In this document: piece after piece, positions 248-27,690 of the stretch
Position numbering within the stretch: the stretch's first letter is position 1
Layout: each line of letters begins with the position of its first letter
Virus record (IMG/VR): IMGVR_UViG_3300043434_000034
Location: 1-30,613 of that record
Strand: one strand, 5' to 3'
Origin: a virus
DNA length: 30,613 nt
The notes under the pieces: model-generated
The model's input: the letters and a program-made list of their open reading frames with translations, nothing else
What the model was told of the DNA's origin: nothing
The model's database searches: none
Translations under genes and position numbers: made by a program

Positions 248-1306
248 TCAGTAGTCCCATCGTACGCGCGGCTTGTTGCGCCTGATACCAAGATGCACAA
301 ATCCATTAGGTGCGCCGTAGCCAAGTGAATACGGCCAGTGCTCATCGCACCAATCTTGCACGTGGTTGATATTGACCTCGCGGATGTAAAAATCAACGGC
401 GCCGACATTGGGCGCATCGTATAGATGCTCACTCCCGCTGGAGCCGCCTACCGCTGCATTGATGGCACGCGGGCGGTAACCGCTGGTGATGACCACAGGT
501 TTACCGCCAAACTTGACGCGGGCACGTTCAAGAAATGCCGCAAGCTCGGCTGCGGTGTCAACTTGATATTGATGGTCGAAGCGGCGTGCCTCTTGAAATA
601 ACGCAAACTCACCAAGCTGCACGTGTGGCGTGATGCGTGCAGTAAATGGGCTGTTGGGTGATAGCTTTGCTGGATCCTGCTGCTGCTCACCAGTCCATAG
701 GCGACCTTCCGCGCGGCGCCGACGCAGCAGTCCGGCTTCTACTGCTGTGCCAGGGTTGCGGTACAGCTCCATGGCAGCGGGCACTGCCGCCCAGTCTTTG
801 TCCTTCAGTCGCTTGCTAATGGTTTCAAAGCCTGCACTGCCATAAAAGCTAGCGCCAAGGTTGTAGGCAAAACTAATCAATGCGCATTGCTTGTTGCCGC
901 TCATCGCGCCCCAAAATGGCACGCTGCTGCGTAGCTTGTCTGCAATGCGTGCTACCTCAAGGTCCAGGAGTTCATTGGCGTCAATGACGGTGATTTTGTC
1001 ACCGCGTTGCACCTTGCGCCCATCTGGGTAGCGCGTGGTGCCATAGCCAATGGTCGCTACATCCCAGCCATGTAGCGGATCAGGGTAGGCGCTGAGATGC
1101 ACACCCTCAAACTCTTTAATGAGTTTTACCGCTGCGTCATAATTATGCAGTTTGCCGCCTGCTTGCCAAGTTTTATACCAAGGCTGATTCCTATTAAAGA
1201 CTTGCGGTGCAACCTTTAATAACTCAGCTTCTAATTCAGATACCGCTGCCATTTGATGCGGTGTGCCGTGCTTGTAATACTTAAACAAGTCGCTTAGTTT
1301 GACCAT
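248..1306 (-). CDS. Bimodular endolysin: GH24 lysozyme plus M15-type peptidase
   Basis: A 352-residue cell-wall lytic enzyme. The N-terminal half carries a T4/lambdoid-type GH24 lysozyme motif: EFEG (65-68, Glu67 likely catalytic), then YPDP (74-77) and TIGYGTT (85-91), followed by the helical NLGASFYGS region. The C-terminal part (about 265-345) looks like an M15 peptidase (VanY/Peptidase_M15_3 group): SGYRP (275-279), H294, D305 and FVHLG with H338 form a zinc-ligand pattern. The two modules should cut glycan strands and peptide stems. No signal peptide is seen, so export probably depends on a holin. Its ATG overlaps the end of the upstream frameshifted lysis gene by 13 bases, which suggests coupled translation. 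Confidence 0.9.
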   Translation of the reverse strand: MVKLSDLFKYYKHGTPHQMAAVSELEAELLKVAPQVFNRNQPWYKTWQAGGKLHNYDAAVKLIKEFEGVHLSAYPDPLHGWDVATIGYGTTRYPDGRKVQRGDKITVIDANELLDLEVARIADKLRSSVPFWGAMSGNKQCALISFAYNLGASFYGSAGFETISKRLKDKDWAAVPAAMELYRNPGTAVEAGLLRRRRAEGRLWTGEQQQDPAKLSPNSPFTARITPHVQLGEFALFQEARRFDHQYQVDTAAELAAFLERARVKFGGKPVVITSGYRPRAINAAVGGSSGSEHLYDAPNVGAVDFYIREVNINHVQDWCDEHWPYSLGYGAPNGFVHLGIRRNKPRVRWDY

Positions 1307-1643
1307 GGCGCTTTGATCTCCATTGCGCCGCCAAGCTTGCGGCTTTCGCCTGTCTGCAGGTTATCGTCAACCGGGTAATGCGTGATCACTGCCTCTGTCT
1401 CTGCAGGTTGCGCTGCGTGCCATTCGGCTTCGGCATCATCTAACCGGCCAGGGAGCATGGCCTCAAACCACCACTCCCTAGCAGCTTGCTCCCAAGTTTT
1501 GCCTAGAGCTTTTTTCCTTTAATGGCACGCAGTGCGTGAAACACCAGCTGGATGATGCTGTTATCGCGCAGCGGCGACAGTGCGATCAGCTCGCTGGCAG
1601 CAGCAACGCAAATCCAAAAAGCGGGATGCGAAAGGAAGTCCAT
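1294..1643 (-). CDS. Small membrane protein extended by putative -1 frameshift (lysis module)
   Basis: The 46-codon gene starting at 1643 contains the heptamer A-AAA-AAG at 1515-1509 in the zero frame, two codons before its TAG stop. A -1 slip there continues through 71 more codons (ALGKTWEQAAREWWFEAMLP at the start) to TAA at 1296-1294, giving 116 residues. The -1 frame is closed by TAA just upstream of the heptamer and has no ATG, GTG or TTG before residue 18 of the extension, yet that stretch looks like real protein (Trp-rich, acidic). This is the pattern expected of programmed frameshifting of the dnaX type. Alternatives are an internal ATG start at 1458 giving a separate 54-residue protein, or a sequencing error in the six-base A run. 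Confidence 0.65.
1503..1643 (-). CDS. Small membrane protein, unshifted 46-residue form (holin-like candidate)
   Basis: ATG at 1643 comes two bases after the stop of the preceding gene. The 46-residue product has one hydrophobic stretch (about residues 7-24, including FWICVAAASELIAL) and a basic tail ending KGKKL. It sits directly before the endolysin, where holins and lysis regulators usually lie. No holin family is recognised, so holin is an inference from size, hydrophobicity and place. The last codons hold the slippery sequence, so this may be the terminated product of a gene that also makes a 116-residue form. Confidence 0.7.
   Translation of the reverse strand: MDFLSHPAFWICVAAASELIALSPLRDNSIIQLVFHALRAIKGKKL
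1509..1515 (-). promoter_or_regulatory. Slippery heptamer A-AAA-AAG (putative -1 frameshift site)
   Basis: Read on the minus strand, the bases are AAAAAAG in the codon phasing A-AAA-AAG, the same heptamer used by E. coli dnaX. The zero-frame TAG follows one codon later (CTC TAG). After a slip the next codons are GCT CTA GGC. I see only a weak hairpin downstream (AGCA-AGC-TGCT) and no well-placed Shine-Dalgarno-like stimulator, so efficiency cannot be guessed. Confidence 0.6.
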
Positions 1644-1645
1644 GG

Positions 1646-1894
1646 CTATGCAAATGGCCGTGCTTCTAGCTTAGTGACTCTCTGCTCCACCGTATTTAAC
1701 CGCGTGAACGTTTCCTTGCGGTCTTCTTTAATGTCCGTATGCAACACCTCAAGCTGCGTTGCGATGTGCTCTACGGCGCTTGTGAGGCGAATAACTGCAT
1801 CACGCGCTTCATCGTTGCGGCGACTAAATCCCATCGCGCCCATTGCGGCAACGGAGATCGAGGCTCCAGCAACAGCGGCAATTAGCTCGATCAT
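1646..1894 (-). CDS. Membrane-anchored coiled-coil protein, putative holin or lysis accessory
   Basis: An 82-residue protein with an N-terminal hydrophobic segment (residues 2-22, IELIAAVAGASISVAAMGAM) followed by a charged helical part (about 30-78; heptad-like RLTSAVEHIATQLEVLHTDI, then RLNTVEQRVTKLEA). One membrane helix plus a cytoplasmic or periplasmic coiled coil recalls XhlA-type phage lysis proteins, but I do not recognise a specific family. Its position in the lysis cassette supports a role in membrane disruption. It starts nine bases after the stop of the small basic gene and ends two bases before the next start, so the cassette is translated as one unit. Confidence 0.75.
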   Translation of the reverse strand: MIELIAAVAGASISVAAMGAMGFSRRNDEARDAVIRLTSAVEHIATQLEVLHTDIKEDRKETFTRLNTVEQRVTKLEARPFA

Positions 1895-13195: not shown

Positions 13196-13725
13196 TTACC
13201 GGTGCCGCGCTTTGTCTATCTCAATCTTCTCGCGCTTGCCTTTCACTTCGTAGTAGGCGGCAAAATGCACAAACTCGGAATCAGTTAGCTCAGTGCGTAA
13301 CTTGCTAACGGTCATGCCAAGCTCTGTAGCAAGGAAGAACTCAAAGAATAACCAAGAGTCTTCCTCTAGTCTTTTTTTGCTTCTTCAATACCGGCTTCGC
13401 CGCCAAGGCCGAACAGGAACAGTTCCAGTTCGTTTAGCACGCGCTCCGGCAGCTCGCGTTGCAGCTTGGCGGCATCAGCAGCTGCGAATGCCTTGGTGCC
13501 GTTCTCAAGCTCTGCCATCTGGCACAGCATCTGCGTGCTGATCTCTAGCGCCTCATCAGAGCCGGCAAGCGTAGTTGCCCTTTTGCGGTCAGCGCGGGTG
13601 ATGGGCTTGAAATAGAGATCCAGCACCACATCGCCAGCGTCGTTGGTAACGCTGAATTTACGGCGCTGGTTCAGATCAAAAGCGCCCGTGAGCAGATCAA
13701 CCGGGCGCTGGCTGTTGGCGGGCAT
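13196..13725 (-). CDS. Tail assembly chaperone GT, made by -1 frameshift
   Basis: The 119-codon G gene ends GIEEAKKD-TAG. The codons GCA-AAA-AAA contain a run of seven A. A -1 slip there continues as RLEEDSWLFFEFFLATELGM and on to a TAA at 13198-13196, adding 58 residues for a 176-residue product. The extension contains LRTELTDSEFVHFAAYYEVK, typical of the T part of lambda GT chaperones. GT links the tape measure to the tail tube subunits and keeps both in an assembly-ready state. The position just before the tape measure is universal for this pair. Frame, slippery site and family all agree. Confidence 0.88.
13366..13725 (-). CDS. Tail assembly chaperone G (unshifted form)
   Basis: The zero-frame product has 119 residues, starting MPANSQRPVDLLTGAFDLNQ and ending in an acidic Glu/Lys-rich helix. 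It is the abundant short form of the G/GT pair and is not part of the mature virion in lambda. ATG at 13725 overlaps the stop of the second tube gene (TGATG). The conserved part is a beta-rich domain (RRKFSVTNDAGDVVLDLYFK) followed by helices. Confidence 0.85.
   Translation of the reverse strand: MPANSQRPVDLLTGAFDLNQRRKFSVTNDAGDVVLDLYFKPITRADRKRATTLAGSDEALEISTQMLCQMAELENGTKAFAAADAAKLQRELPERVLNELELFLFGLGGEAGIEEAKKD
13372..13378 (-). promoter_or_regulatory. Slippery run A-AAA-AAA for GT frameshift
   Basis: Seven consecutive A on the minus strand in phase A-AAA-AAA, followed by G-AC-TAG. The zero-frame stop is only one codon downstream of the run. A short hairpin, AGAG-GAAGA-CTCT, starts right after that stop and might stimulate the slip; it is small and its effect is a guess. 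Confidence 0.8.
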
Positions 13726-26646: not shown

Positions 26647-27690
26647 TTACCCTTTAATTTGCACAGGCATTACCAGATAAGTTACACCATCCATGCCACT
26701 AGGTGTCAGCACCACGGGTGAGGTTGCCGTATTGGCGTGCAGGGTGATGGATTCTGCGGGCTTGAAAGCCTTGATGCCGTCTAGCAGGTAGTGGGCGTTG
26801 AATGCCCATGTGCCCTTTGCGGTGCCTTCCATTGCCAGCAGCTCATGGCCGTTGTTGGCATCGGCTTCAGCGCTGATTTCAAGCCCGATGTTGGTGGCGG
26901 TGAACTTGACGATGGAGTTGTGGGCATCGGCGATGACGGCAACGCGCTCTAGTGCGCGGGTCAAAAGGCGACGATCAACGGTGATGGTGCTGGTGAAGTC
27001 AGTGGGCAGCAGCTTAGCTACATCTGGATAGGTGCCATCTAGCACGCGGCTGTAGATGGTGATGCCATCGCCGGCATCAATGACGGCTTGACCGGCTGCC
27101 ATGGCGATCGTGACCACGCGATCCTGCAGCAGCCGCATGGTGCTGGCGGGCAGTACTACGTCGAGGCCGGCGGGCAGGTCAGTGGGGTAGCGCATGAGGC
27201 GATGCCCGTCAGTGGCTTCCATGTGGCCGCTGCCGAGGTGGATGCCTTGGAGCAGTTGCTTGCTGGCATCAGTGCTGGCAGCTGCCATGCAGGCGCGAAT
27301 ACCAGCGGATAGGTGCAGCTCGCTCGTAGCGGCATCCACAACAGGCAATGCGGGGTAATCCGCCGCATCAGCCGCTGCTAGCCCGTAGGAGCCGCTGAAA
27401 GCGGTTAGAGCGCCATCTGCGAGGGTCAGAGCCTCGTCACCCTCAAAGCGGCTTACAAGGCCAGCTAGGAGCCGATACGGCAGCGCTACAGCGCCATCGG
27501 TCTCCACTGCAGCAGGCAGACCGCTGACGGTAATGCCGAGGTCAAGGTTGAAGCCAGTGATGGACATGGTGCCACCAGCGGCTTGGATGAGGCAGCAGTC
27601 AAGTATCGGGTGTGAGCTGCGCACGCCGACGGCTGGCGCGATGGTACGCAGCGCGTAATCAAGATCAGATTGACAGGTTGTGAGTTTCAT
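26647..27690 (-). CDS. dnaN: DNA polymerase III beta sliding clamp
   Basis: A 347-residue protein with three clamp-like domains, slightly shorter than bacterial DnaN (about 366-390). Family marks: HPIL (27-30), ATDGHRL (159-165), DGTYPDV (218-224), RALERVAVIAD with NSIVKF (245-263), FNAHYLLDGIKAF (297-309) and a C-terminal TYLVMPVQI corresponding to the AYVVMPMRL end of E. coli beta. It should be a ring that tethers a polymerase to DNA. The start overlaps the preceding stop (ATGA). No polymerase or clamp loader lies in the window, so it may work with host components. Confidence 0.93.
   Translation of the reverse strand: MKLTTCQSDLDYALRTIAPAVGVRSSHPILDCCLIQAAGGTMSITGFNLDLGITVSGLPAAVETDGAVALPYRLLAGLVSRFEGDEALTLADGALTAFSGSYGLAAADAADYPALPVVDAATSELHLSAGIRACMAAASTDASKQLLQGIHLGSGHMEATDGHRLMRYPTDLPAGLDVVLPASTMRLLQDRVVTIAMAAGQAVIDAGDGITIYSRVLDGTYPDVAKLLPTDFTSTITVDRRLLTRALERVAVIADAHNSIVKFTATNIGLEISAEADANNGHELLAMEGTAKGTWAFNAHYLLDGIKAFKPAESITLHANTATSPVVLTPSGMDGVTYLVMPVQIKG

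Follow-up and report, generated by a model that had tools for sequence, protein, structure and literature searches.

Comparative evidence for conserved −1 frameshifting in a small membrane protein gene of cyanophage lysis cassettes

A small membrane protein gene of cyanophages almost certainly directs conserved −1 frameshifting close to its 3′ end, as judged by comparison of 244 distinct loci; the rate of the event was not measured. The gene came to light in a viral record of 30,613 bases, the whole of which was analyzed and is referred to here as the window. Its best annotated relatives at the lysis locus are Synechococcus phages S-CBS3 and S-CBS1 and cyanophage KBS-S-2A, and its source is a cyanosiphovirus akin to S-CBS3 and S-CBS1. 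The order of genes on the minus strand is an 82-aa protein, the 46-codon membrane protein gene, its −1 extension and an endolysin.

The 46-codon gene (1503..1643, minus strand), which was defined by its ORF and translation and whose short product is read in frame 0, ends in GGA AAA AAG CTC TAG. As the first-pass annotation, made from the window alone, had reported, this places a dnaX-type heptamer, A_AAA_AAG (1509..1515, minus strand), in the right phase near the stop, with one sense codon between them. The other details it gave also hold. The −1 frame is closed just 5′ of the heptamer by a TAA at 1521-1519, has no start codon before the heptamer, and is then open to 1297, adding 71 residues after Lys45 (extension 1294..1515, minus strand, stop at 1296-1294). 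The ATG of the endolysin (248..1306, minus strand; Phage_lysozyme and Peptidase_M15_3, from Pfam and PHROG matches) lies at 1306, giving a 13-base overlap. Assignment of the extension draws on its translation, a search against its own genome, selection, a survey of starts and an AF2 model. Upstream, the 82-aa protein (1646..1894, minus strand; phrog_26178) has an N-terminal hydrophobic stretch followed by a predicted coiled coil and gives weak matches to phrog_937 and phrog_8821, which are hemolysin (XhlA-type) and Rz-like spanin families; a homologue precedes the membrane gene in 139 of 241 distinct regions.

Elsewhere in the window, a candidate tail assembly chaperone gene (13366-13725, minus strand) ends in GCA AAA AAA GAC TAG and has a −1 extension, beginning KKRLEEDSWLFFEFF and running to about 13190, that stops just ahead of the following large gene, as is usual for G/GT. 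By eye only, a 347-aa product (26647-27690, minus strand) resembles the DNA polymerase III sliding clamp, which is unusual at this phage size.

To gauge chance, we counted in-phase heptamers of the form X_XXY_YYZ (Y = A or T) in the window's other genes and found 8 in 9,488 codons, one of them in the tail chaperone gene. Given the amino acids and the codon usage of this phage, A_AAA_AAG after Gly is expected in ∼2% of cases, and the chance of a heptamer, again from the window phage's codon usage, is roughly 1–12% per case. Among relatives the residue ahead of A_AAA_AAG varies (Gly, Ala, Pro, Ser, Gln, Val, Glu, Thr, Lys or Arg), with the third base of its codon staying A.

When the fused 116-aa sequence was used to query viral contigs, 80 loci were retrieved. 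In each, the frame-0 gene is 46 codons long, with one codon between AAG and its stop, and a related −1 extension is present, in many cases with an 8-residue insertion directly past the junction. All of the loci carry A_AAA_AAG except L071 (GGG AAA AAG) and one other. Scans of viral contigs combined with profile searches brought the collection to 244 distinct complete loci and one truncated locus. The extension was sought with a separate profile, seeded from heptamer-bearing loci and run against all three frames of every locus. It was found in 230 of the 244, always in the −1 frame, and an in-phase heptamer accompanied it in 228 of these 230. The heptamers are A_AAA_AAG (164 loci), C_CCA_AAG (46), G_GGA_AAG (17) and A_AAA_AAC (1), such that the A-site codon is AAG in all but one. 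Both exceptions, L071 (G_AAA_AAG) and L321 (C_CCG_AAG), depart from a heptamer by one base. None of the 14 homologues without the extension has a heptamer. The association between heptamer and extension gives a Fisher P value of 6e-21, which serves only to rank the effect because the loci share ancestry. The heptamer-bearing loci fall into 61 clusters when the 3′-terminal 123 bases of the gene are compared with a nucleotide identity threshold of 85%; as only heptamer-bearing loci were clustered, this number measures diversity and not retention.

The layout recurs across siphoviruses, S-EIV1-like phages and Autographiviridae. KBS-S-2A and S-CBS1 retain A_AAA_AAG and the extension, S-EIV1 has G_GGA_AAG, and the Autographiviridae S-B28, 7B11-B and WH11-B have A_AAA_AAG followed at once by TAA and a shorter extension. 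In MedDCM-OCT-S37-C6, Lys-Lys is encoded by AAG AAA, and both heptamer and extension are missing. Four further loci, all in metagenome bins, came from bacterial genome contigs; the extension and the heptamer occur together in three of them and are both missing from the fourth. Neither the viral contigs and phage records nor these genome contigs yielded a homologue with the two parts fused in frame 0. Loci L404, L406 and L407, which carry the membrane gene, heptamer and extension, come from bins labelled Hyphomonadaceae, bacterium TMED88 and Planctomycetota and look like misbinned cyanophage-type contigs. A short, unannotated homologue of the 46-aa protein, lacking heptamer and extension, occurs in Microviridae sp. 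SD_MC_44 from Ciona gut (L091:1186-1326).

Selection acts on the extension as a protein. Across five clades, median dN/dS was 0.07–0.16 for the frame-0 part and 0.15–0.47 for the extension, the value of 0.47 coming from 8 podovirus sequences; by this measure, both parts are under purifying selection. The extensions differ strongly among clades, the constant features being an Asp in (R/K)(L/I)D, a proline after WHxxQ and a C-terminal I-x-(A/S)-P-W. The peptide TWEQAAREWWFEAM, whose conservation the first-pass annotation had proposed to check, is conserved within the window's clade but not outside it. Its broader check, whether homologues of the 46-residue protein conserve the heptamer and the −1 extension, showed the two to be kept together, and neither of the patterns that it said would refute frameshifting, a homologue with both parts in one frame or loss of the heptamer alongside a conserved start for the extension, was encountered. 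The programmed −1 frameshift that it proposed is strongly supported by three canonical heptamers at one position, none in homologues without the extension, and an extension under selection.

AF2 models the extension as a long helix and two short strands (pLDDT 84.5). The fold had no match among solved structures, comparison with known folds and curated families likewise gave no match, and the window-clade extension has none in PHROG. A BFVD search returned a weak match to S-PM2 Q5GQH8 and two short viral ORFs, which, judged by length and identity, are apparently annotated fragments of the extension. The podovirus tail weakly matches phrog_6464 (E 7e-4), a T4-like cyanophage protein of unknown function; we take this as a lead only. 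Proteins of the phrog_6464 type in the T4-like cyanophages P-RSM1 (L241:1267-1662) and S-SSM7 (L243:1267-1653) have the motif ETGxFGDEGWSI in common with the podovirus extension, and are encoded in a single frame without a membrane part.

The short form is 46–50 aa long, with a hydrophobic stretch at 7–25 and a C-terminal KK. The hydrophobicity of this stretch is no more than moderate (Kyte-Doolittle 19-mer mean 1.5–2.3), and a conserved Glu lies inside it. AF2 models the 46-aa protein as two helices, 7–22 and 29–43 (pLDDT 78). A holin is expected to be small, to have one membrane helix or more and to end in basic residues, and the protein conforms to this, its hydrophobicity being moderate. 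No described holin family was matched in scans of Pfam, NCBIfam and PHROG. In PHROG, the 46-aa protein falls into phrog_22542 (E 4.5e-29), to which phrog_15106 (P60 gp39) is related; no function is recorded for either.

Position also bears on function. In 187 of 214 loci the extension is followed by an ORF homologous to the endolysin, which upholds the placement in a lysis cassette made in the first-pass annotation. In P60, S-SRP01 and S-CBP1, a related stand-alone protein lies near a lysozyme or glycoside hydrolase gene. In the Autographiviridae S-B28 and WH11-B, the membrane gene immediately precedes the terminase small subunit gene, the same position as that of the T7 holin gene 17.5. The positional criterion for a holin, location beside the endolysin or at an established holin position, is fulfilled. 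One suggestion of the first-pass annotation, that the extended protein might be a partner linked to the endolysin, is weakened, because the Autographiviridae keep the extension without an adjoining endolysin.

In two loci (L409:2501-2982 and L410:2501-2982), the same extension follows, by a −1 step, a non-homologous hydrophobic protein of 62 aa (phrog_9685-like). The junction there is TCA AAG only, at which P-site re-pairing would be poor. Neighboring genes encode a coiled-coil/membrane protein and a hydrolase-like protein, the hydrolase and coiled-coil calls being made by eye. That the tail is attached to small membrane proteins of two unrelated kinds, in both cases within a lysis-type cassette, suggests that it acts on a role which these proteins share.

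From position, and without any measurement of lysis, we infer that the membrane gene quite probably has a role in lysis. The short form would then probably be a small holin-type protein, and the long form, which shares its membrane helix, would probably co-assemble with it at a ratio set by the frequency of slippage, so as to delay or tune the formation of holes in the manner of an antiholin. That the long form modulates the short form is a plausible inference, held with some doubt. The frameshift model as a whole, with a holin-type short form and a co-assembling modulator, is the one that we favor on balance. One caveat here is that the holin-like and dosage-set modulator roles are inferred from gene position and anatomy, without data on lysis activity, and production of both forms is itself inferred, as no −1 product was measured.

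Both products may be made and yet serve another purpose, such as envelope remodelling, superinfection exclusion or membrane-associated assembly. The lack of matches to holin families leaves room for this, as do the related stand-alone proteins found in a microvirus and, away from any obvious endolysin, in Oinezvirus-like phages. Relatives of the alternative 62-aa membrane protein, moreover, lie unannotated in the capsid regions of Pseudomonas and Rhizobium phages and hence provide no proof of a holin role. We nevertheless think a non-holin function unlikely, given the constant placement beside lysis genes over several phage types and the T7 gp17.5-like position in Autographiviridae.

Alternatively, the frameshift could act mainly to bring ribosomes to the endolysin start, so that endolysin is made by coupled translation as a fixed fraction of the membrane protein and the tail is secondary, in a way that recalls coupled expression of the MS2 lysis gene. 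The frame-0 stop lies ∼200 bases 5′ of the endolysin start, and the overlap between the end of the extension and the next start codon is usually 1–59 bases, both of which would suit such delivery; coupling, however, needs no conserved 71-residue tail, and the extension is selected as a protein, conserves its C-terminal motif and persists in Autographiviridae and S-EIV1, where a gene other than an endolysin comes next. These data make delivery a rather improbable main function.

Under the frameshift model, most ribosomes would stay in frame 0 through A AAA AAG NNN to the stop, and the membrane protein of 46–50 aa would be released. A minority would slip to −1 as the two tRNAs re-pair, at AAA, CCA or GGA in the P site and from AAG to AAA in the A site, thereby bypassing the frame-0 stop and adding a tail of about 50–100 residues, probably on the cytoplasmic side. 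The latter placement is inferred from the positive-inside rule, the C terminus of the short form being basic. In 217 of 217 loci the frame-0 stop comes 0 or 1 codon after the heptamer, and hence the end point of the short product does not vary. Having the stop so close might promote slippage, or might do no more than define where the short product ends.

Stimulatory signals were sought on both sides of the heptamer. SD-like 4-mers located 5–20 bases upstream were absent from 215 of 217 loci, the other two having one; frameshift genes do not require such an upstream stimulator. In the window's clade a hairpin was predicted far 3′ of the heptamer, at a distance of about 30 bases (mean z −2.0); it has almost no covariation and is absent from the other clades. 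We found no downstream structure common to the whole family, in a survey that did not extend to pseudoknots.

An indel or sequencing error was considered and rejected, as the same −1 layout is seen in independent isolates and hundreds of contigs. More generally, the heptamers, selection, the start survey, recurrence and L409/L410 make sequencing error, separate initiation and transcriptional slippage unlikely.

Separate initiation would have the extension translated from its own start, via reinitiation after the frame-0 stop and without frameshifting. Annotators have indeed given parts of the extension separate ORFs in S-CBS3, S-CBS1 and S-EIV1, and 99 of 226 distinct extensions contain some ATG, GTG or TTG within 20 codons. 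However, only 1 of the 226 has an ATG within the first 10 codons, the open −1 stretch has no start 5′ of the heptamer in 202 of 219 cases, conservation begins at the heptamer, and reinitiation offers no reason for the heptamer to persist as three forms. We consider it very improbable. The ORFs in question are S-CBS3 gp22 (L083:3186-3353), S-CBS1 gp23 (L086:3159-3371) and that of S-EIV1 (L084:3171-3407); their annotated starts are internal and non-conserved, and the frame-0 membrane protein of S-EIV1 is absent from the deposited annotation. Transcriptional slippage, possible in principle on the A6G run, is extremely improbable as a source of the long form and is rejected for the C_CCA_AAG and G_GGA_AAG clades, which have no run longer than 3. 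The codon phase is constant, as tandem tRNA slippage requires, and tandem tRNA slippage accounts for all three motifs, as transcriptional slippage does not.

The mechanism belongs to a known class; the setting and the gene family appear to be new. Conserved frameshifts in tailed phages are known mainly from the tail chaperones, and the dosage of lysis proteins is known to be set mainly by dual starts. A_AAA_AAG is the E. coli dnaX site and, according to a review, among the most shift-prone heptamers in that organism (PMC5009743). The dnaX gene resembles the window gene in heptamer, phase and the making of a short and a long product with a common N terminus, and differs in that its shifted product is the shorter one (PMC5009743). 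The upstream Shine-Dalgarno-like stimulator of the dnaX type was not found in the cyanophage family, whose members also use C_CCA_AAG and G_GGA_AAG. The tail chaperones G/GT of lambda and other phages likewise involve a conserved −1 shift late in a small phage gene and a less abundant long form that gains a domain, like the predicted cyanophage long form (PMC5009743). The membrane gene differs in identity, place and likely role, preceding the endolysin and not the tape-measure gene.

Among lysis genes, the dual-start holin/antiholin S105/S107 of lambda makes an effector and a co-assembling modulator from one gene (PMC9841429), a likeness that remains a hypothesis here. The lambda forms arise from two starts two residues apart, whereas two products are predicted from the membrane gene by a slip site near its 3′ end, the longer carrying a 71-residue C-terminal tail. 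Expression of the MS2 lysis gene has been ascribed to frameshifting or termination coupling (PMC5009743, PMC10885494). Like the cyanophage locus, MS2 ties a change of reading frame to a lysis gene and overlaps the next start; in the cyanophages, by contrast, the shifted frame encodes a long, selected protein and there is a canonical heptamer. In full-text searches that did not cover subscription papers, and in a 2013 survey of frame transitions in prokaryotes, a 2024 frameshift-prediction paper and part of a 2016 recoding review, we found no frameshifted holin, antiholin or lysis membrane protein; MS2 was the lysis-related case mentioned there. The first-pass annotation had likewise known of no described lysis gene with this layout. 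Papers on S-LBS1 and KBS2A mention neither a holin nor a frameshift. It is possible, though we put it forward only tentatively, that this widespread cyanophage family makes from one gene a holin-type protein and an extended modulator, at a ratio fixed by frameshifting and with a portable tail, and is the first frameshift-set holin/antiholin as far as we could find.

The products of the gene are at present mis-annotated as separate ORFs or missed. Cultured isolates with the layout (S-CBS3, KBS-S-2A, S-B28 and S-EIV1) make direct testing possible, and the three natural heptamers with a shared A-site codon form a series for the study of frameshifting in cyanobacteria. A conserved frameshift in cyanophage lysis cassettes would add a control point for lysis timing, in phages whose hosts are abundant aquatic photosynthetic bacteria.
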